DNA of 64,000 bases from Porodaedalea pini (lineage: Eukaryota > Basidiomycota > Agaricomycetes > Hymenochaetales > Hymenochaetaceae). How positions within the stretch are numbered: position 1 is the first letter of the stretch; each line of letters begins with the position of its first letter. The notes beneath the pieces are model-generated. The model was given only the letters and a program-made list of their open reading frames with translations, made no database searches and had not been told where the DNA came from. Shown in pieces: positions 18,809 through 48,412 of the stretch. Location of the stretch: the NCBI GenBank assembly GCA_002794775.1, contig NBAY01000014.1:1-64000 (forward strand), in the 5' to 3' direction. A program made the translations under genes and the position numbers.

Positions 18809-20079
18809 TATAAAGCCTAGTATTCTTTCGTGCATGCGGACCTCAAGTGTCAATCTTCCAGTACCTCCAGTTCTTTGGCTGGGATATGTTGTGAGTCTTA
18901 GCTACGTATGTATTAGAGTACGACAGATATGTCGTGAAGCATCATAATATATTTGTCGGCTTAGCTATATGGCCCAGTCCATCGTACATGGCTTTTACGG
19001 AATGAATTATGGAATGGAATAAACGTGACACGGAAGCCGCCGTATATATGCCCTCTGAAAGGATTGTTCACTCGTGTCAGCAATGGTCAGTCATCGGCCG
19101 AATTTTGTTTTCGAGACTTTTCGGAGGTGTAATGCAAGGGCTTTGGCTGCCAGACAGAGAAGACCAAACTTTCTCATCATCTTTGCTAGCGGCTGAAGCA
19201 CCAATCGATCGTCATAAGCAACAAGATGTGTGCGCGGGCTATTAGCAAAGTCGCATCGGAAGAAATGTGAGCTGAATACTAAAACCTGTAGTAAGACACG
19301 GTGTTGTCACTGAGCGTCATACTGCATACTCCTGCTCGTCGTGAGGAAGAAAGAATGGATGTAAGAGGAACATTGCTCTGTGGCTATTCATATCCCCGAC
19401 ACCTAGCTGTATAAAGGGGCTGGACTGAAGAGGAGGTAAAGATAGAAGACGTGCCTTAGTAAGAGTGCACTTGGCTAAGTAGACTATTACTTGCAATGGA
19501 TGCTATTTATTCGTCAAAAGCGAAAGATCCGCGAGTTCAAATGGGCCCGGCAGATCCGGCAACTCGGCAGATCCGCTTAGTCAAGCTCTCATTTTATCAA
19601 GTTCAGCTTCTTCCTTCAACTCATGGAGAAGTCATGGAGAAGTCGTCGCAGGGTTCCGAACGAATGCTGGGGTTTAGACATCCATCTTTCTCTGAAATCA
19701 AGACGTTTCGATAGTGGAGATCCTTAGTGACCACCTTAGTATGCATGGGCATTCTGAGTATGCACTTGTCGGTGCAGTCCATCGCACATAAGCTTCACGT
19801 ACGTCCTCAAGCATCTCCCGCAGATAGGAGCACTTAGGATTCTCATAAAACGTTAGACTTACCTCAGCCGGAGCAGTCAGTATTGCATGCAGGGATAAAT
19901 CATTTGGACGGCGTGCATACGGTGACAACGTCAAATGCGGGAGGCCGGAGTGAGTCTTTTACACTTGGTTGACTCATATTATCCTACTTATCACTTTTTT
20001 AATCATAAAGAGTACCACTCGATGGTTTTAACACATCCATAAGCCCTCCCCCCCTCGCTCTTGCTCTACGAACAGATCA
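18809..20079. other. Intergenic, no gene recognised
   Basis: Short frames only. A direct repeat of the CATGGAGAAGT type occurs at about 19620-19640. Nothing else identifiable. Confidence 0.45.
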
Positions 20080-35148: not shown

Positions 35149-35155
35149 ATTGAAG
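35149..35155 (+). repeat. 7-bp direct repeat ATTGAAG, left flank of palindrome
   Basis: ATTGAAG abuts the first base of the left arm and occurs again directly after the last base of the right arm (48406-48412). This is what a target-site duplication looks like. Beyond these seven bases the flanks differ. Confidence 0.6.
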
Positions 35156-35225
35156 CACTTCAGGCTACCCCTCTGAGCAGACCAAGTAGGTCTATTCGTA
35201 CACACAACTAATTGACCATTTAGGT

Positions 35226-35475
35226 ATTGAGCCTGGGCGTGCCCAATCCGCTGGGCACTCCCAGTGGGTGCGGGTTGGGTGTGCCCAATTTTTTTTACTG
35301 TGGGAAAGTTGGGTGCACCCAGATCATTTGGGCACTCCCAACTGGGCCTGCCCAGTTTTTGGGCACTCCCAACCGGGCCTGCCCAGTTTTTGGGCACACC
35401 CAGTGGGAGTGCCCTGGGAGTGCCCAGATATGTCACTGTCACTGACTGTCTGGGGGACTTTTGGGCACACCCAAT
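35226..35475 (+). repeat. Subterminal GGGCAC/GTGCCC repeat cluster (left)
   Basis: About ten short inverted words of the type TGGGCACACCCA or TGGGAGTGCCCA, spaced 15-35 bp apart, starting 70 bp inside the arm end. They share their core with the internal 32-bp array. Subterminal repeats in DNA transposons often bind transposase; that role is inference here. Confidence 0.6.
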
Positions 35476-36370
35476 TTGTTTTTGCCATAAAATCTAGGGG
35501 CTTTATAAATGTTGTATTTTATTGTTTTTGATCCTACAATTTAGTGATCTTGCTATTGACCATTGGCATGAATTGAATTTTGGTCAAGATTAGTCTGCAT
35601 CAGACAGGAAAGAATGCTGAGCATGCTAGACACACAGGACAAAAAGATATTTGTTGCTATTAGAAAGACTAAGATAATAAAAATAATAGAGATAGTATTG
35701 AACAGTTCTATATACTGTAAGACAAATGGAGAAATAGGGAAATTGTACAGCAGTATGAGAGAAATGAAAATAAATATGAGTCAGCTAAAAGTGTAATGAC
35801 TACTTAAGAAATCATTAATGATATTCTAACATTAAACATTGGGAATCAAGCTCCAGCATTCTAACTATATTAGAGAGATTATATGTCATAGGCTCTATGA
35901 GAAGTTCTAACTAGAGTGACATAGCTGCACTGGACACTTAAGTAGAGCAATTGAAAACTGAACAAGTGCAAAGGTCTGATACATTAGGATTAGTTTGAAT
36001 GCCCAAGTAGAATAGAGAGTATAAACTAAGAGGGAAACTGAGATAGAAATGTAGAAAGAGTGTAAGTCCACTAGAGCATTCTTATCATTTCTAACATGTT
36101 GCTGACCTTCTGAACATCATAACATAACTTTGAGATACTAAGCATCTAACACTCTGAGATACACAAAGTATCAATACAGTGTAAAATCCTAGGATGAAGA
36201 GAACAAGAAAGGGAAGAGATTTGAAGTTAAAATGAAAGAGAGACTTGAAAGCAGTCAGACTTGAGCTGTGCTCAAATATCAGGCCTGGACTACTAAGCTT
36301 AAAAGATTAGATATGACTAGTTGACTGTATCTAAATCTTTTACAGGTACCTAGTTGAGTATACTCAGTAT

Positions 36371-37085
36371 ACCCAACTATTTGGGAGTGCCCAATTATCT
36401 GGGGGTGCCCAGTTGGGCGCGCCCAACTATCTGGGGGTGCCCAGTTGGGAGTGCCCAACTATCTGGGGGGGCCCAGTTGGGAGTGCCTAACTATCTGGGG
36501 GTGCCCAATTGGGCACACCCAACTATCTGGGGGGGCCCAGTTGGGAGTGCCCAACTATCTGGGGGGGCCCAATTGGGCACACCCAACTATCTGGGGGGGC
36601 CCAGTTGGGAGTGCCCAACTATCTGGGGGGGCCCAGTTGGGAGTGCCCAACTATCTGGGGGGGCCCACTTGGGCACACCCAACTATCTGGGGGGGCCCAA
36701 TTGGGCACACCCAACTATCTGGGGGGGCCCAGTTGGGAGTGCCCAACTATCTGGGGGTGCCCAGTTGGGAGTGCCCAACTATCTGGGGGTGCCCAGTTGG
36801 GAGTGCCCAACTATCTGGGGGGGCCCACTTGGGTGTGCCCAACTATCTGGGGGTGCCCAGTTGGGCGTGCCCAACTATCTGGGGGTGCCCAGTTGGGCGT
36901 GCCCAACTATCTGGGAGTGCCCAGTTGGGCACACCCAATTATCTGGGGGTGCCCAACTGGGTGCACCCAACTATCTGGGGGTGCCCAACTGGGTGCACCC
37001 AATTATCTAGGGGTGCCCAGTTAGGTACATCCAATTATCTGGAGGTGTCCAGTTAGGTACACCCAAATGTCTGAGAGTACCTAGC
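36371..37085 (+). repeat. 32-bp minisatellite array, about 22 copies (left arm)
   Basis: Unit core CCCAACTATCTGGGGG followed by TGCCCAGTTGGG and a variable AGTG, CGTG or CACA. Each unit contains its own inverted pair, CCCAACT...AGTTGGG, which could form a 7-bp-stem hairpin. Variants alternate GGGGGTGCCC with GGGGGGGCCC. Because 32 is not a multiple of three and the unit has no stop, all three plus frames stay open for 170-218 codons, giving a 32-residue peptide repeat in each. I treat these frames as a by-product. Confidence 0.9.
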
Positions 37086-37311
37086 TATATAAGGTCTTTT
37101 TTTGATTCCTGCCTTAGAATCATTTTTTAAAATGCAAAAAATCATTATGTCATGAAAATTAAATAAGTCTAGAATGGAAGCCTTAATAATTCTATAGATA
37201 ATTTCTCAAGCATTTTGTTCTAGACTCTGCATCTTGGCAGCTTTGCTCTGAAGACAAATCAATACACTACAATCATTGACCCGACACCAGAGCTTCCACA
37301 AGATTAAGGAT

Positions 37312-38158
37312 AAGAAAGCATAAAACTTCATTTTGAAGAGATTACCACCCTGCTCCTCAATAGTGCTCTGTATCTTCTCAATTGCATGCTCAAGACACTC
37401 AATTGCTGCATACCGCAAACTCAAAATAAGTATAGAGTGAGACAATTACAACAAACACAGCGCACATTGTCAGTAGCATTTGTACCCAGCACACAGAGAG
37501 GCAGTGAAATGAGCTTTGCCTTGATAGGTACCACCTCAGTGCTCACCACCTCACCTGTCTGATAATATCAATGCCCATGTCCATATAGCACATTAACTCA
37601 ATGTCTGCATGCAGCTTGATTGGCTACAGTAGTTGGCCACCACATGATCATCACCATCAGCTGTGCGAATGTTGCCAGTAACAGCAAGTTCAACAGCATT
37701 GTGAAGACCTTCTCCAGCTCCATCAGTATGAGCTTGAATGCATCATACAGATGGCCATATGTCTTGCCTAGCAGCCACCATCACTATTTCCTTCTTGTCC
37801 TCACCTGTTGCCTCCAGTTTTGTAGGTGTGGTGCTGGACTGGCCCTCAGAGATCTCCTCTGACAAAAGTTTGGATGCAACATGTCATAATATGGATGCAA
37901 CCATCTTCTCTTCACATTTTGTAATGTCCTCCAGTGATACACAACACTTACTCAGATCAAAGTATCCTTCAAGGATAACAAATGAATGACTGAGACTGAT
38001 ACAACAGATACAACAAGAGACAGACCCTTCCCCTTGTCCACATGTAGGATGACAATGATCTCTTTCCTTCCAACACAGATCAGCCTTTGAATTGAACAAG
38101 TTCACCTGCAAGAAAGCTCTGAGAGTAGAATCATCCCCTTGATGTTGTCACATTCAAC
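37312..38158 (-). pseudogene. eIF2-alpha (translation initiation factor 2 subunit 1) relic, left arm
   Basis: Mirror of the right-arm copy, described there; same stops and frameshifts. Confidence 0.7.
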
Positions 38159-38344
38159 CTGTATATATCATGAATGACAGTCAGTATTAAGTCGCATCGG
38201 CCTCTGACCCGACACTCAAGCCCAAGTTGGACAAATAGTTCAAATCTGTACTCCATGCGGGACTCCACACACCATTAGTACTGTTATTGAAGTTATAGCT
38301 ATAATGATAGCTACATGACACCACACACAGTATCTCAAGCATTG

Positions 38345-39073
38345 GTTCACCAAGTGAGAGTGGCAAGTACAAAAAGCACACTGTCAGCTCTTCAAGTGGG
38401 ACAGGCATCGGGTCAGACGACAATGGTGTCTGACGGAAAGCGGAAAAAGCAATGTTCGTTGTGCACTGAGTGCCGCGTGCTGGTGAGCTGCAATGATCGT
38501 GAGAGGGCGGCACACTCCGCACGGCTGCGCCATCTGGCAGCGTAGCAGCACACCTGAGCTCTGTTCGCGAACCCTGCCTTTGTCTGCGTACGGCCAAATT
38601 CCGGACTATTTGCATCGGACAAGGGTGGACTCGGGAAGTGCATCGCGTCGCGTGCTGCAGATTGTTGGCAGTGAACCAAATGCGATTGTTGATTCACCAA
38701 GTGAGAGCGGCGAGTACGACAGGCAGAATGTCAGTTTTTTGAGCGGAACGGGCATCGGTCAGACAACAATGGTGTCTGTGATGCAAGCGCGGAAGAAAGG
38801 AATGTTTGCTGTGCACTGAGCGCCGCAATGACCGCGAGAGGTGGACCAACAAACGAGAACGGCAACGATCCTGGGGATCAATAGTGGGGCAGCACGCTCC
38901 GCACGGCCGCATCACCTGGCAGCGTCGCAGCATGTCTGAGGTACTCCGTTTGCCATCCCTGCCTTTGTCTGCGCGCGGCCAGACTTCAGACTTGCGCCTG
39001 CATCTGGCAAGGGTGGACTCGGGAAGTGCCCCGCGTTTGTGCACTGCAGAAACCGGAGACGATCCAAATGCAT
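38345..39073 (-). repeat. Imperfect tandem duplication of the cyclin tail (left arm)
   Basis: Mirror of the right-arm tandem pair. Confidence 0.7.
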
Positions 39074-40296
39074 TCGTACCCTCGCTTTTCGTGCGTTGCA
39101 TGTTGCGTGACTTCTCTTCCTGCGGCAGCGTAGTGCTCTTGCCGACCCAGAGACACCACCCTAGGGCATCGCCCAATGCGCGTTAGCAGCGTTCAACCAC
39201 GCGTGATGGGACCGGAGAGCTTTGCCCATGCTCGATTCAAATAGCATCGATCCTGTAAGAATCTTGATACCACAACGAGTGCGGCGACGAAAGTGCGCCG
39301 CGGGCGAAGAAGCGGCGATGACAGAGGTGACAGCGGTGTGAACGGTTTTCCAAGGATCTTACGACGCTTGTCGTTAGACTGCCCTTGAGTCTGCATCTGC
39401 TGAGTTAATGGAAGCGAAGTGTCCATATGGTAGACTGTCGGCACGCGCGATGTGTCGGAGGGGTCCATTGACGTCAGCTCTGTCGGAAGACCGCAGGGGT
39501 TGGACGTGTCCGAAGAGGTATTTGCCTTTGACGAGAGAGACGCCTCGCCTTCCCTCTTATCCAACTCCGGCTCGCCCCTCACTCCCGTGCTGATCTTCTC
39601 CTTCTCCGCGAGCCCCGTCACCTTCCCCCGCACCACCCCGATGTAGCAGAGCGCCGACTGCAGGACGCTACGTCTCGTGCGTGAACGGCGAGGCGAGTGC
39701 GATGCAGTGCGTATGCGACGAAGTGCGCAAGCGTATTCGGTATCACTGGTGCCCCTCCTGATCCTGCCGTTGCGGTAGCGGGGGAACGCGAGACGACTGC
39801 GGTCGAGGACGATGTGGAAGAGGTGGAGGACGACGGAGGAAGGATCTCGGGGCAGTCGAAGGTATGGCTGACGAAGCGCGCGCAGAGCTTGCTGATGTCT
39901 TCGTGCCCGTAGTAAGTGTCGACTGCCGGTGGGGGTGCTGCTGGCGCGGGGTGGTGCGAGTGGTGTGCGCGCGGGACTGCCGATGACTGTTTTTTTGTCG
40001 AGCGTTTTCGGCGCGGTCGGAGGGAAAAAAAAGTGATAGAGAAAAAGACACCGATCAACAGCCGCTCATCACTCAAGTATCAGAGATCGGGGGGAAAGAG
40101 GGGGGATGCTTACAGAACTCGAGGTAGACGCTGCGGCAGCGGCGGACGCAGAAGACGATTTCGCAGGTGGAGGCGGGGCGTACGTCGCGCGGTGCACGCG
40201 CCGGAAGGGCGAGTGGTTCGAGCTGGCACTCGACGGTGATATCGAATGCGGATGCGGATGGGGGTGGGGATGGCGCGGGGCGTGGACGGTGGCCAT
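38942..40296 (-). pseudogene. Pho85-type cyclin relic (left arm)
   Basis: Mirror of the right-arm copy, described there. Confidence 0.65.
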
Positions 40297-40551
40297 ATTC
40301 GCTGCGGCGGGCTCTCTGGCTCTGGACGTTGACGAGCGTCTGTGAGCGTCGAAGGACAGGTGGAGTTGATGCGTGAGAAGAGGTCGCTGCGAATGTTTTG
40401 ATCGGAACGAGATCCTTCTCGGACACAACGGTTGCGTCGCGTTCGCCGGACCGCTCAATGAGAAGGGCGGATGGGAAAACGGCTGACGTCGATGTTGAAG
40501 CGTGTGGATCGTCAAGGGGGGCAGGAGGAAGAGGCGAGGAACACGTGCTGC

Positions 40552-40823
40552 GTGAACAGGGCGAGGGAAGTTGAACCACACCAGTGCGGCAGAGACGGAG
40601 GGAAGAGTGACCAGCAGAAAGGAGCACCCTGCTTCATCGGGAAGCCCTGCTTGTCGTTTCCGCCAGAGACGCGGAAGACGTAGCCCTTGAACTCATCACC
40701 GAGCAAGTCGCTGGGGACACCTGGGACATCTTCTTGCCGTGGAAAATGCGGTAACGACGCTCATCGTCGATGTTGATCGTCTTTTGCTGGCCCATCGCCA
40801 GGTCAGCGATGTCGACACTTCAT
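40552..40823 (-). pseudogene. Ribosomal protein eS6 relic (left arm)
   Basis: Mirror of the right-arm copy, described there. Confidence 0.75.
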
Positions 40824-41628
40824 GGCCGGTGGTGTCTTGAGGAGCTCGTCGTGTTCTGTCCCTTCAGGCAAGCAAAAAAAATGATGAAAAGTAATTATTA
40901 GTATATTCAAATAGTTTTTATGATTATTTTTTTTGCTTACCTTGAGTGTGTGGCTGGTGGGACAGCCGTGCTCGTCGTCGATGGTGAAGACGAAACGACA
41001 CGAACAACGACGACGCGTTGGTTGTGTTGCCTGATTTGGCTGATCGCCGCGTCTCAAACAAGCAATCAAAGCATTCCGATTCTTTCGGAAATCTCAAAAG
41101 TCTCAGCTGTTGGCCTCAGACAAATTCTACGGACGCGTTTAAAAATACAAAAAAATATGGAATAGTTTTATTATGTATGTATCTATAGCATAGCTAAGAA
41201 TTACGCGTCCAGCGCGTTTTTTTATGGAGTCATAAATACAACAGTAATCTTGACATGCAGCACCAGGCCTCCAGAAGCATACACAAAAGTACAATATACC
41301 CTGAAAGGCCTGACACATATTCTATCATGAAGTAAGTGATACATTGTGTATGTATGCAAGGTTTCAAGCCAATCAGACAAGAACTGACTTCATGATAGAG
41401 AAGGAGGTGGTTTCATGAGATCTTCTGAATCTGAGTGTTTTGTATATCCTGTTCCCAGTTTTTACTTTGAGGGCATATAAAATATTGAGCATATTTAGGG
41501 ATATCGTTTTTATGTCTCTGTAAATTTACAGGTATCCAGCCTCAGTGGTTGGAGCTGGGGGAATTGCAAAACATCGAAAATCTTGGGTTTAAGAGGTTCA
41601 GAGAAAGCATATATTCATGTTGTTGCTT

Positions 41629-41933
41629 TATTCCAAACTTCAGGAAGCTCTATAAAATAGATATTAGTACTTTATATGACTACAATAATTGTAATCAGGT
41701 GCTAGATCTCGGAGTTAGAGGAAAGTTCTGAAGGAGGAGAGGAAATACATGCAAAACTGCTCTGTGTTTCTTGGATTTGCGTCGAGTTTCACAAAACATG
41801 AACTGCATCACCTCTCATTTCACTCCCCATTCCCAACTTTTCCCTCACCCACAAAACTAAGGGTTGGATATCTTTCTTGGACCATACTTAAATACAAATA
41901 ACTAAATTTGTTGAGCTTCTCATACTTTGAACC
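41629..41933. other. Central spacer (305 bp) between the palindrome arms
   Basis: Unique sequence between the exact arms. The two margins are still loosely similar in inverted orientation (for example TTCCAAAC..GAAGCTC on the left against TTCAAAG..GAAGCTC on the right, reversed). This suggests a diverged continuation of the same symmetry. No gene; a 60-codon frame from 41549 spans the junction and is not family-like. Confidence 0.75.
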
Positions 41934-42738
41934 AAGCAACAACATGAATATATGCTTTCTCTGAACCTCTTAAACCCAAGATTTTCGATGTTTTGCAATT
42001 CCCCCAGCTCCAACCACTGAGGCTGGATACCTGTAAATTTACAGAGACATAAAAACGATATCCCTAAATATGCTCAATATTTTATATGCCCTCAAAGTAA
42101 AAACTGGGAACAGGATATACAAAACACTCAGATTCAGAAGATCTCATGAAACCACCTCCTTCTCTATCATGAAGTCAGTTCTTGTCTGATTGGCTTGAAA
42201 CCTTGCATACATACACAATGTATCACTTACTTCATGATAGAATATGTGTCAGGCCTTTCAGGGTATATTGTACTTTTGTGTATGCTTCTGGAGGCCTGGT
42301 GCTGCATGTCAAGATTACTGTTGTATTTATGACTCCATAAAAAAACGCGCTGGACGCGTAATTCTTAGCTATGCTATAGATACATACATAATAAAACTAT
42401 TCCATATTTTTTTGTATTTTTAAACGCGTCCGTAGAATTTGTCTGAGGCCAACAGCTGAGACTTTTGAGATTTCCGAAAGAATCGGAATGCTTTGATTGC
42501 TTGTTTGAGACGCGGCGATCAGCCAAATCAGGCAACACAACCAACGCGTCGTCGTTGTTCGTGTCGTTTCGTCTTCACCATCGACGACGAGCACGGCTGT
42601 CCCACCAGCCACACACTCAAGGTAAGCAAAAAAAATAATCATAAAAACTATTTGAATATACTAATAATTACTTTTCATCATTTTTTTTGCTTGCCTGAAG
42701 GGACAGAACACGACGAGCTCCTCAAGACACCACCGGCC

Positions 42739-43010
42739 ATGAAGTGTCGACATCGCTGACCTGGCGATGGGCCAGCAAAAGACGATCAACATCGACGATG
42801 AGCGTCGTTACCGCATTTTCCACGGCAAGAAGATGTCCCAGGTGTCCCCAGCGACTTGCTCGGTGATGAGTTCAAGGGCTACGTCTTCCGCGTCTCTGGC
42901 GGAAACGACAAGCAGGGCTTCCCGATGAAGCAGGGTGCTCCTTTCTGCTGGTCACTCTTCCCTCCGTCTCTGCCGCACTGGTGTGGTTCAACTTCCCTCG
43001 CCCTGTTCAC
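42739..43010 (+). pseudogene. Ribosomal protein eS6 (RPS6) N-terminal relic (right arm)
   Basis: Small-subunit ribosomal protein, N-terminal third only. It starts ATGAAG, then after a one-base shift reads [20 protein letters not shown] and [11 protein letters not shown]. After a second shift comes [20 protein letters not shown] and FPMKQG, and a third frame continues with LLLSAGHS (family RLLLSxGHSCYRPRRTGE). These are near-invariant eS6 segments. The C-terminal phosphorylated tail is absent. The relic runs into unrelated sequence at about 43010, just upstream of the cyclin relic. The exon-intron-like stretch before it (42490-42735, GTAAGC...TGAAG) is unidentified. Confidence 0.78.
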
Positions 43011-43265
43011 GCAGCACGTGTTCCTCGCCTCTTCCTCCTGCCCCCCTTGACGATCCACACGCTTCAACATCGACGTCAGCCGTTTTCCCATCCGCCCTTC
43101 TCATTGAGCGGTCCGGCGAACGCGACGCAACCGTTGTGTCCGAGAAGGATCTCGTTCCGATCAAAACATTCGCAGCGACCTCTTCTCACGCATCAACTCC
43201 ACCTGTCCTTCGACGCTCACAGACGCTCGTCAACGTCCAGAGCCAGAGAGCCCGCCGCAGCGAAT

Positions 43266-44620
43266 ATGGCCACCGTCCACGCCCCGCGCCATCCCCACCC
43301 CCATCCGCATCCGCATTCGATATCACCGTCGAGTGCCAGCTCGAACCACTCGCCCTTCCGGCGCGTGCACCGCGCGACGTACGCCCCGCCTCCACCTGCG
43401 AAATCGTCTTCTGCGTCCGCCGCTGCCGCAGCGTCTACCTCGAGTTCTGTAAGCATCCCCCCTCTTTCCCCCCGATCTCTGATACTTGAGTGATGAGCGG
43501 CTGTTGATCGGTGTCTTTTTCTCTATCACTTTTTTTTCCCTCCGACCGCGCCGAAAACGCTCGACAAAAAAACAGTCATCGGCAGTCCCGCGCGCACACC
43601 ACTCGCACCACCCCGCGCCAGCAGCACCCCCACCGGCAGTCGACACTTACTACGGGCACGAAGACATCAGCAAGCTCTGCGCGCGCTTCGTCAGCCATAC
43701 CTTCGACTGCCCCGAGATCCTTCCTCCGTCGTCCTCCACCTCTTCCACATCGTCCTCGACCGCAGTCGTCTCGCGTTCCCCCGCTACCGCAACGGCAGGA
43801 TCAGGAGGGGCACCAGTGATACCGAATACGCTTGCGCACTTCGTCGCATACGCACTGCATCGCACTCGCCTCGCCGTTCACGCACGAGACGTAGCGTCCT
43901 GCAGTCGGCGCTCTGCTACATCGGGGTGGTGCGGGGGAAGGTGACGGGGCTCGCGGAGAAGGAGAAGATCAGCACGGGAGTGAGGGGCGAGCCGGAGTTG
44001 GATAAGAGGGAAGGCGAGGCGTCTCTCTCGTCAAAGGCAAATACCTCTTCGGACACGTCCAACCCCTGCGGTCTTCCGACAGAGCTGACGTCAATGGACC
44101 CCTCCGACACATCGCGCGTGCCGACAGTCTACCATATGGACACTTCGCTTCCATTAACTCAGCAGATGCAGACTCAAGGGCAGTCTAACGACAAGCGTCG
44201 TAAGATCCTTGGAAAACCGTTCACACCGCTGTCACCTCTGTCATCGCCGCTTCTTCGCCCGCGGCGCACTTTCGTCGCCGCACTCGTTGTGGTATCAAGA
44301 TTCTTACAGGATCGATGCTATTTGAATCGAGCATGGGCAAAGCTCTCCGGTCCCATCACGCGTGGTTGAACGCTGCTAACGCGCATTGGGCGATGCCCTA
44401 GGGTGGTGTCTCTGGGTCGGCAAGAGCACTACGCTGCCGCAGGAAGAGAAGTCACGCAACATGCAACGCACGAAAAGCGAGGGTACGAATGCATTTGGAT
44501 CGTCTCCGGTTTCTGCAGTGCACAAACGCGGGGCACTTCCCGAGTCCACCCTTGCCAGATGCAGGCGCAAGTCTGAAGTCTGGCCGCGCGCAGACAAAGG
44601 CAGGGATGGCAAACGGAGTA
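43266..44620 (+). pseudogene. Pho85-type (PCL-like) cyclin relic (right arm)
   Basis: Cyclins of this kind activate a Pho85-class kinase. Exon 1 (43266-43448, MATVHAPRH..., a His/Pro- then Ser/Ala-rich leader) splices across a good GTAAGC...AACAG intron to exon 2 at 43576. The cyclin box begins with YYGHEDISKLCARFVSHTFD, then NTLAHFVAYALHRTRL. A frameshift near 43890 follows, then ALCYIGVVRGKV. A Ser-rich insert leads to FVAALVVVSRFLQDRCYLNR and AWAKLSG, then after a stop near 44366 the segment RALGDALGWCLWVGK. So at least one frameshift and one stop break the box. The gene is CpG-rich and recent-looking compared with the outer arm. Subfamily is an inference. Confidence 0.65.
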
Positions 44621-45217
44621 CCTCAGACATGCTGCGACGCTGCCAGGTGATGCGGCCGTGCGGAGCGTGCTGCCCCACTATTGATCCCCAGGATCGTTGC
44701 CGTTCTCGTTTGTTGGTCCACCTCTCGCGGTCATTGCGGCGCTCAGTGCACAGCAAACATTCCTTTCTTCCGCGCTTGCATCACAGACACCATTGTTGTC
44801 TGACCGATGCCCGTTCCGCTCAAAAAACTGACATTCTGCCTGTCGTACTCGCCGCTCTCACTTGGTGAATCAACAATCGCATTTGGTTCACTGCCAACAA
44901 TCTGCAGCACGCGACGCGATGCACTTCCCGAGTCCACCCTTGTCCGATGCAAATAGTCCGGAATTTGGCCGTACGCAGACAAAGGCAGGGTTCGCGAACA
45001 GAGCTCAGGTGTGCTGCTACGCTGCCAGATGGCGCAGCCGTGCGGAGTGTGCCGCCCTCTCACGATCATTGCAGCTCACCAGCACGCGGCACTCAGTGCA
45101 CAACGAACATTGCTTTTTCCGCTTTCCGTCAGACACCATTGTCGTCTGACCCGATGCCTGTCCCACTTGAAGAGCTGACAGTGTGCTTTTTGTACTTGCC
45201 ACTCTCACTTGGTGAAC
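44489..45217 (+). repeat. Imperfect tandem duplication of the cyclin tail (right arm)
   Basis: Copy 1 (about 44489-44870) and copy 2 (about 44879-45217) share GCATTTGG, CTTCCCGAGTCCACCCTTG, GCAGACAAAGGCAGGG and CTCTCACTTGGTGAA in the same order, with many substitutions and some short indels. Copy 1 continues the cyclin relic; copy 2 is its diverged duplicate. The duplication predates the palindrome because both arms have it. Confidence 0.75.
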
Positions 45218-45403
45218 CAATGCTTGAGATACTGTGTGTGGTGTCATGTAGCTATCATTATAGCTATAACTTCAATAACAGTACTAATGGTGTGTGGAGT
45301 CCCGCATGGAGTACAGATTTGAACTATTTGTCCAACTTGGGCTTGAGTGTCGGGTCAGAGGCCGATGCGACTTAATACTGACTGTCATTCATGATATATA
45401 CAG

Positions 45404-46250
45404 GTTGAATGTGACAACATCAAGGGGATGATTCTACTCTCAGAGCTTTCTTGCAGGTGAACTTGTTCAATTCAAAGGCTGATCTGTGTTGGAAGGAAAG
45501 AGATCATTGTCATCCTACATGTGGACAAGGGGAAGGGTCTGTCTCTTGTTGTATCTGTTGTATCAGTCTCAGTCATTCATTTGTTATCCTTGAAGGATAC
45601 TTTGATCTGAGTAAGTGTTGTGTATCACTGGAGGACATTACAAAATGTGAAGAGAAGATGGTTGCATCCATATTATGACATGTTGCATCCAAACTTTTGT
45701 CAGAGGAGATCTCTGAGGGCCAGTCCAGCACCACACCTACAAAACTGGAGGCAACAGGTGAGGACAAGAAGGAAATAGTGATGGTGGCTGCTAGGCAAGA
45801 CATATGGCCATCTGTATGATGCATTCAAGCTCATACTGATGGAGCTGGAGAAGGTCTTCACAATGCTGTTGAACTTGCTGTTACTGGCAACATTCGCACA
45901 GCTGATGGTGATGATCATGTGGTGGCCAACTACTGTAGCCAATCAAGCTGCATGCAGACATTGAGTTAATGTGCTATATGGACATGGGCATTGATATTAT
46001 CAGACAGGTGAGGTGGTGAGCACTGAGGTGGTACCTATCAAGGCAAAGCTCATTTCACTGCCTCTCTGTGTGCTGGGTACAAATGCTACTGACAATGTGC
46101 GCTGTGTTTGTTGTAATTGTCTCACTCTATACTTATTTTGAGTTTGCGGTATGCAGCAATTGAGTGTCTTGAGCATGCAATTGAGAAGATACAGAGCACT
46201 ATTGAGGAGCAGGGTGGTAATCTCTTCAAAATGAAGTTTTATGCTTTCTT
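45404..46250 (+). pseudogene. eIF2-alpha (translation initiation factor 2 subunit 1) relic, right arm
   Basis: Begins at a splice acceptor (TATACAG|GTTGAATGT) and reads VECDNIKGMILLSELSC, the OB-fold S1 region of eIF2-alpha. It continues, frame-hopping, with LICVGRKEIIVILHVDKGKG, YFDLSK, CCVSLEDITKCEEK (family RRVSxEDIxKCEE), YDAFK-like pieces, KLHADIELMCYMDMGIDIIR (family KIRADIEVxCxxxEGIDAVK), VVSTEVVPIKAKLISLPLCV and LEHAIEKIQSTIEEQGGNL (family LExAIExIxxxIxExGG). The start codon and the Ser51 kinase-target region are missing because the capture began inside an intron. Several stops make it non-coding. CpG is nearly absent, unlike the neighbouring cyclin relic. Confidence 0.72.
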
Positions 46251-46475
46251 ATCCTTAATCTTGTGGAAGCTCTGGTGTCGGGTCAATGATTGTAGTGTAT
46301 TGATTTGTCTTCAGAGCAAAGCTGCCAAGATGCAGAGTCTAGAACAAAATGCTTGAGAAATTATCTATAGAATTATTAAGGCTTCCATTCTAGACTTATT
46401 TAATTTTCATGACATAATGATTTTTTGCATTTTAAAAAATGATTCTAAGGCAGGAATCAAAAAAGACCTTATATA

Positions 46476-47190
46476 GCTAGGTACTCTCAGACATTTGGGT
46501 GTACCTAACTGGACACCTCCAGATAATTGGATGTACCTAACTGGGCACCCCTAGATAATTGGGTGCACCCAGTTGGGCACCCCCAGATAGTTGGGTGCAC
46601 CCAGTTGGGCACCCCCAGATAATTGGGTGTGCCCAACTGGGCACTCCCAGATAGTTGGGCACGCCCAACTGGGCACCCCCAGATAGTTGGGCACGCCCAA
46701 CTGGGCACCCCCAGATAGTTGGGCACACCCAAGTGGGCCCCCCCAGATAGTTGGGCACTCCCAACTGGGCACCCCCAGATAGTTGGGCACTCCCAACTGG
46801 GCACCCCCAGATAGTTGGGCACTCCCAACTGGGCCCCCCCAGATAGTTGGGTGTGCCCAATTGGGCCCCCCCAGATAGTTGGGTGTGCCCAAGTGGGCCC
46901 CCCCAGATAGTTGGGCACTCCCAACTGGGCCCCCCCAGATAGTTGGGCACTCCCAACTGGGCCCCCCCAGATAGTTGGGTGTGCCCAATTGGGCCCCCCC
47001 AGATAGTTGGGCACTCCCAACTGGGCCCCCCCAGATAGTTGGGTGTGCCCAATTGGGCACCCCCAGATAGTTAGGCACTCCCAACTGGGCCCCCCCAGAT
47101 AGTTGGGCACTCCCAACTGGGCACCCCCAGATAGTTGGGCGCGCCCAACTGGGCACCCCCAGATAATTGGGCACTCCCAAATAGTTGGGT
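46476..47190 (-). repeat. 32-bp minisatellite array, about 22 copies (right arm)
   Basis: Mirror of the left array with the same order of variant units. Identical variant order in both arms shows that the arms were copied as a block or are kept identical by gene conversion. Confidence 0.9.
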
Positions 47191-48085
47191 ATACTGAGTA
47201 TACTCAACTAGGTACCTGTAAAAGATTTAGATACAGTCAACTAGTCATATCTAATCTTTTAAGCTTAGTAGTCCAGGCCTGATATTTGAGCACAGCTCAA
47301 GTCTGACTGCTTTCAAGTCTCTCTTTCATTTTAACTTCAAATCTCTTCCCTTTCTTGTTCTCTTCATCCTAGGATTTTACACTGTATTGATACTTTGTGT
47401 ATCTCAGAGTGTTAGATGCTTAGTATCTCAAAGTTATGTTATGATGTTCAGAAGGTCAGCAACATGTTAGAAATGATAAGAATGCTCTAGTGGACTTACA
47501 CTCTTTCTACATTTCTATCTCAGTTTCCCTCTTAGTTTATACTCTCTATTCTACTTGGGCATTCAAACTAATCCTAATGTATCAGACCTTTGCACTTGTT
47601 CAGTTTTCAATTGCTCTACTTAAGTGTCCAGTGCAGCTATGTCACTCTAGTTAGAACTTCTCATAGAGCCTATGACATATAATCTCTCTAATATAGTTAG
47701 AATGCTGGAGCTTGATTCCCAATGTTTAATGTTAGAATATCATTAATGATTTCTTAAGTAGTCATTACACTTTTAGCTGACTCATATTTATTTTCATTTC
47801 TCTCATACTGCTGTACAATTTCCCTATTTCTCCATTTGTCTTACAGTATATAGAACTGTTCAATACTATCTCTATTATTTTTATTATCTTAGTCTTTCTA
47901 ATAGCAACAAATATCTTTTTGTCCTGTGTGTCTAGCATGCTCAGCATTCTTTCCTGTCTGATGCAGACTAATCTTGACCAAAATTCAATTCATGCCAATG
48001 GTCAATAGCAAGATCACTAAATTGTAGGATCAAAAACAATAAAATACAACATTTATAAAGCCCCTAGATTTTATGGCAAAAACAA

Positions 48086-48335
48086 ATTGGGTGTGCCCAA
48101 AAGTCCCCCAGACAGTCAGTGACAGTGACATATCTGGGCACTCCCAGGGCACTCCCACTGGGTGTGCCCAAAAACTGGGCAGGCCCGGTTGGGAGTGCCC
48201 AAAAACTGGGCAGGCCCAGTTGGGAGTGCCCAAATGATCTGGGTGCACCCAACTTTCCCACAGTAAAAAAAATTGGGCACACCCAACCCGCACCCACTGG
48301 GAGTGCCCAGCGGATTGGGCACGCCCAGGCTCAAT
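48086..48335 (-). repeat. Subterminal GGGCAC/GTGCCC repeat cluster (right)
   Basis: Exact mirror of the left subterminal cluster, beginning 70 bp inside the right end. Confidence 0.6.
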
Positions 48336-48405
48336 ACCTAAATGGTCAATTAGTTGTGTGTACGAATAGACCTACTTGGTCTGCTCAGAGGGGTAGCCTG
48401 AAGTG

Positions 48406-48412
48406 ATTGAAG
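48406..48412 (+). repeat. 7-bp direct repeat ATTGAAG, right flank of palindrome
   Basis: Second copy of the word found at 35149-35155, starting directly after the last base of the right arm. Confidence 0.6.

Follow-up and report, generated by a model that had tools for sequence, protein, structure and literature searches.

Sex chromosomes provide the best-known cases of gene conversion between palindrome arms, and fragments of host genes are carried by Pack-TYPE elements such as the Pack-MULEs. Transposons dominated by terminal inverted repeats (TIRs) include the foldback elements FB and Tetris, which are mostly TIR and contain internal tandem repeats (PMC4079207, available sections), and Galileo, a P-superfamily element of Drosophila with 7-8-bp target site duplications. 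For Galileo, the accessible parts of PMC2775673 and PMC4168063 describe a 9021-bp copy that lacks a transposase segment and has one TIR of 4246 bp and one of 4680 bp, two copies whose TIRs are >99% alike within each copy and ~7% apart between copies, and insertions of transposable elements into one TIR that end up in both. In the Kyakuja-Dileera-Zisupton (KDZ) group, target duplications measure 7 bp in Kyakuja and 8 bp in Zisupton, and Zisupton has TIRs; two Laccaria bicolor Kyakuja families show 7-bp duplications, 5'-CA..TG-3' termini and no TIRs (available text of PMC12730594, section 3.2.1 for the latter). A literature search on the structure of KDZ elements, on giant palindromic transposons and on homogenisation within elements, with most subscription papers outside its reach, found Galileo and the foldback elements and no palindromic KDZ element. 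Here we describe a 13,250-bp palindrome in a 64,000-nt window of the Porodaedalea pini genome (the whole stretch analysed, positions 1 to 64,000 of contig NBAY01000014.1, here C14). It is very probably one copy of a non-autonomous cut-and-paste KDZ family whose TIRs have grown into 6.5-kb arms, which is moved by a KDZ transposase in trans and undergoes arm-to-arm gene conversion.

A palindromic element with a target site duplication

A walk inward from both ends placed the left arm at 35156..41628 (plus strand, 6473 bp, starting with CACTTCAGGCTACC) and the right arm at 41934..48405 (minus strand, 6472 bp, finishing with CCTGAAGTG), separated by a non-palindromic spacer of 305 bp (41629..41933). 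The TIRs thus take up 12,945 of the 13,250 bp, the foldback-type arrangement in which long TIRs form most of the element. The only difference between the arms is an extra T in the left arm, within a T-run at 37103, and there are no substitutions. One multi-copy alignment gave 15 mismatches between the window arms, all inside a 32-bp tandem array and caused by gap placement; the direct walk finds none of them. ATTGAAG stands immediately outside both ends, at 35149..35155 on the left and 48406..48412 on the right. The initial annotation had reported a near-perfect palindrome with a 305-bp spacer, a single one-base homopolymer difference and ATTGAAG on either side, and the end walk bears out each of these points. 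Taken alone, ATTGAAG would be weak evidence of a duplication because it occurs 13 times in the window, but the flank becomes strong evidence once the family is considered: 15 further copies that share these ends carry exact 7-8-bp duplications of their own.

The element is one of a dispersed family

These copies come from a search of the genome (53.3 Mb, 201 contigs) and are named by contig (C28, C40a and so on). The 31-bp end motif, located in the window at 35156..35186 (plus strand) and 48375..48405 (minus strand), occurs 57 times genome-wide with up to 3 mismatches, and its reversed pattern, used as a control, 0 times. Eleven of the 57 ends are single, and the others form 23 convergent pairs whose members are 10.7-22.1 kb apart. 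Flanks were sought at 21 copies; both ends were in hand for 20, the right end of C45 lying outside the stretch taken, and 16 of the 20 show exact 7-8-bp target duplications. All 11 copies compared in full, the window element and 10 others, are palindromes around a common spacer (trimmed to 214-218 bp in the other 10), with arms of 6.2-6.6 kb when inserts are disregarded. C69 is likewise palindromic, and differs from the window family by 10-17% over most aligned stretches. The suggestion that the element is non-autonomous, has very long TIRs and was transposed is thereby supported, and the search for its terminal sequence and flanking duplications, proposed at the same time, did turn up further copies, each with its own 7-8-bp duplication. 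What the initial annotation had not contained is that an element with the same ends encodes a KDZ transposase domain, that the family numbers dozens and that its arms evolve in concert.

To judge from the available descriptions, the family resembles Galileo in duplication length, long TIRs and within-copy TIR identity, with homogenisation in Galileo on a smaller scale, but differs in transposase superfamily and host, in the palindromic structure of 11 out of 11 full copies, in its 6.2-6.6-kb arms and in its host-gene cargo. With FB and Tetris, as far as the text at hand describes them, it shares the dominance of TIRs and the internal tandem repeats, here combined with a KDZ link and gene-bearing 6.5-kb arms. 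The family is a new variant of long-TIR transposon with striking, measurable concerted evolution of its arms.

Two observations were made next to family members. In C50 a truncated copy (96206-97119) with a third end at 97119 lies 1.2 kb beside an intact copy. A sequence of ~0.86 kb, perhaps another small foldback repeat, matches in both orientations within 1.5 kb of C69, C29a and C141 and directly adjoins C29a.

The arms of each copy evolve in concert

Our strongest result is the concerted evolution of the arms within each copy. We compared 11 copies over the 5678 alignment columns that have at most 2 gaps and lie outside the 32-bp array and the spacer edge; 14 arm differences common to copies had proved to be spacer edge. 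Six of the 11 (C14b, C19, C29a, C42, C70 and the window element) have no arm-to-arm substitution; C29b has 1, C50 and C120 have 4 each, C35 has 6 and C40a has 22. Between copies, by comparison, 5-38 substitutions were counted (mean 25), and in 10 of the 11 each arm is closest to the other arm of its own copy. Changes private to a single copy are present in both arms at 76 sites and in one arm at 19, 8 of the latter in C40a; a looser filter gives 97 and 26. Private changes of the C-to-T type fall at CpG in 25 of 47 cases. Since identical private mutations arising independently at such a frequency are implausible, we conclude that sequence has been copied between the arms. The comparison of C69 with the window family extends this picture, each palindrome having kept its arms alike while the subfamilies diverged by at least a tenth.

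An element with the same ends carries a KDZ transposase domain

A KDZ profile search of the genome gave 77 matches (75 of 75 candidates scored), none of them in the window element. One lies at 19200-19916 (E 3.1e-60) in the 22-kb C28 element (3533-25584), which has the 31-bp ends of the family and an 8-bp duplication. The outer 1.67 kb of C28 is 96% alike between the two ends and the next 1941 bp is 100% identical, which gives a TIR of at least 3.6 kb. No S6e match, the cargo described below, falls in C28 among the matches listed (150 of 193 candidates scored). Because the ends are shared, a C28-type transposase would be expected to move the palindromes, and the window element is most plausibly a non-autonomous KDZ element that is moved in trans.

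The 7-8-bp duplications, exact at 16 of the 20 copies with both ends in hand, agree with the lengths given for Kyakuja and Zisupton, and the termini, CACTTCAGG..CCTGAAGTG, have the 5'-CA..TG-3' form of Kyakuja. Set against the L. bicolor Kyakuja families as they appear in the available text of PMC12730594, duplication length and termini are therefore held in common; those families lack TIRs, whereas kilobase TIRs are present here (6.5 kb in the window, at least 3.6 kb in C28), and the assignment of C28 by its domain match is to the KDZ group as a whole. We file the element under KDZ rather than Kyakuja because it has TIRs and because Zisupton, also a KDZ element, has them too. Plavaka, of which the genome holds 64 transposase matches, was the first candidate for an affiliation and was dropped: the sections of PMC12730594 at hand give Plavaka 2-3-bp duplications and TGT or CATCA termini. 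The many Plavaka and KDZ matches also make an agaricomycete host probable.

Host gene fragments are captured in both arms

Both arms of the window element contain a fragment of the gene for ribosomal protein S6e, detected by profile search at 40620..40718 (minus strand) in the left arm and at 42844..42942 (plus strand) in the right, where the frame 42802-43047 scores E 4.9e-11; the "gene debris" noted in the initial annotation is thus confirmed. One host match, at C81, spans all 125 profile positions. Genome-wide there are at least 107 element-type S6e fragments (150 of 193 candidates scored; five longer rows overlapping fragments of C57, C141 and C162 were left out of the count), which form 50 head-to-head pairs and 7 singles, with one pair per palindrome wherever this was checked. 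Scores are equal on both sides in 48 of the 50 pairs, whereas the left-side scores range over 17 distinct values (30.6-55.0). When the lists were compared by eye, every end pair except C28 (22 in all) proved to contain a head-to-head pair, and a further three, on C119, C141 and C162, adjoin a single 31-bp end.

A second fragment, DENND11/Avl9-like, is carried by each arm of C57, C69 and C162 and has a single occurrence in C141, with one host gene in C80; its scores are equal between the arms in C57 and C69, and in C69 it gives a profile match. Cargo therefore varies by subfamily yet usually occupies both arms. The hallmark of Pack-TYPE elements, captured gene fragments whose more complete parent is also in the genome, is accordingly present for S6e (C81) and the DENND11-like gene (C80); as in Pack-TYPE elements the fragments come from the host, but here each TIR holds one and the two form an inverted pair. 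A cyclin-like cargo, proposed by eye, was rejected: Pfam returned no cyclin in the window frames tried, one C69 frame reached E 0.016, short of the cut-off, and none of 8 cyclin matches in the genome lay inside any element among the 23 end pairs and 11 singles.

Mechanism and alternative explanations

What is observed directly is a multi-copy family with shared ends and target duplications, in which both arms carry host-gene fragments and change in concert, and arm-to-arm gene conversion is the best explanation of the arm identity; conversion in place and conversion during transposition would both serve. In the mechanism that we propose, TIRs would have enlarged until the whole element consisted of two 6.5-kb arms and a 305-bp spacer, and KDZ transposase from C28-like elements would recognise the common ends and move the palindromes in trans. 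A mutation or capture would strike one arm, the facing arms would pair by fold-back, and gene conversion would then either copy the change to the other arm or erase it. Both ends would in this way stay alike, and cargo would spread into both arms.

Several observations weigh against this explanation. C14b and C25 have no target duplication, that of C40a is 6 bp only and that of C46 is 7 bp with one mismatch, as judged by eye; an origin of C14b and C25 by exchange of duplications (inversion), considered on by-eye inspection, found no support. Arm matching is broken in C40a (C40 9399-22106), whose arms show 22 differences and do not group as sisters; its left arm is close to C29a, and C40a may be a recombinant between two insertions, similar to the Galileo chimeras described in the accessible part of PMC2775673. 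It is broken as well by retrotransposon-like inserts in one arm of C19 (~6.25 kb, 414-bp end repeats) and one arm of C69, the other arm being without, and by a left arm in C56 that is ~71 bp shorter near its end. In C69 the outer 2790 bp of the arms are alike but for 1 mismatch, and 5 more single-column differences follow over the next ~3.5 kb; S6e scores are unequal in two pairs (C141, C162). The link to C28 is strained in that two fetched 2-kb inner-TIR stretches of C28 resemble neither the arms of C42 nor those of C69, and in that its transposase is known from one domain, with less than half of the C28 sequence covered. Finally, 25 of the 50 S6e pairs have no 31-bp end nearby when the lists are compared by eye, from which it follows that other or decayed ends exist. 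Pairs of this kind include those on C83, C24, C122, C44, C116, C125, C37, C49 and C51, and many have ~4.3 kb between the fragments as against 2.1 kb, which points to one or more sister families.

Some of the arm identity could stem from assembly or polishing. That the palindromes or their identity are such an artefact altogether is nevertheless very unlikely: although we worked from assembled sequence alone, perfect long palindromes assemble poorly and one-arm differences cluster near the unique flanks, where reads anchor best, 16 of 20 copies have distinct flanks on each side with matching 7-8-bp duplications, copy-specific changes lie deep in the arms, interior one-arm differences are kept in C35 and C40a, and S6e fragments are paired head to head at 50 places. 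The same dispersed copies, with common ends and differing 7-8-bp duplications, leave practically no room for a host palindrome or segmental duplication that is not a transposon, a reading prompted by the likeness of arm conversion to Y-chromosome palindromes and one that we consider refuted by the duplications. A P-superfamily element would account for the 7-8-bp duplications, very long TIRs and within-copy identity seen in Galileo, but the KDZ domain inside C28, an element with the same ends, makes this highly improbable; the P-type RNase H profile PF21787 also had 0 matches in the genome, a weak argument as control genomes were silent too.

The most serious competitor, doubtful in our view but not negligible, holds that homogenisation is confined to transposition: at each move an intermediate, folded back as a hairpin or replicating, would use one arm as template for the other, with none in place thereafter. 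A cut-and-paste lineage that jumped repeatedly would yield the same private changes in both arms, and an element that stays where it is can retain arm differences, as seen in C40a with its 22 and in C19 and C69 with their inserts in one arm. Against it, one-arm private changes lean towards the outer 140 bp (4 of 11, versus 3 of 76 both-arm changes, C40a excluded; Fisher p 0.004), although the 140-bp cut was chosen post hoc, sites are few and inclusion of C40a gives p 0.028. Such a lean fits conversion in place that is limited by the non-homologous flanks, and read anchoring could mimic it. The end repeats of the C19 insert, moreover, differ by 1 mismatch in 414 bp and the compared arm columns of C19 by 0, small numbers that give a weak hint in the same direction.

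With gene conversion between the arms as the preferred explanation, the presence of dozens of palindromes in one genome, many with known ends and distinct flanks, means that conversion can be measured for its speed, tract length and timing. The family also suggests a route to foldback-like elements in the KDZ group, none of which is described in the available sections of PMC12730594, and a route by which captured gene pieces become inverted pairs. More speculatively, and with less conviction than we would grant even to homogenisation by transposition alone, the palindrome could be a functional device whose halves serve each other as a repair template: methylation-type decay would be erased or shared, a captured gene piece doubled into an inverted pair and both ends kept matched, the copying perhaps being built into transposition through a giant hairpin. 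If the arms are transcribed, the RNA would also form long double strands that match the host genes from which the carried pieces derive.

Other features of the window

The 32-bp subterminal tandem array lies at 36381..37054 in the left arm, where it comprises 21 units, and at 46507..47180 in the right arm. An Rfam search of the window gave 0 matches. Outside the element, an open reading frame at 17885-18808 matches HSP70 (E 5.5e-36).
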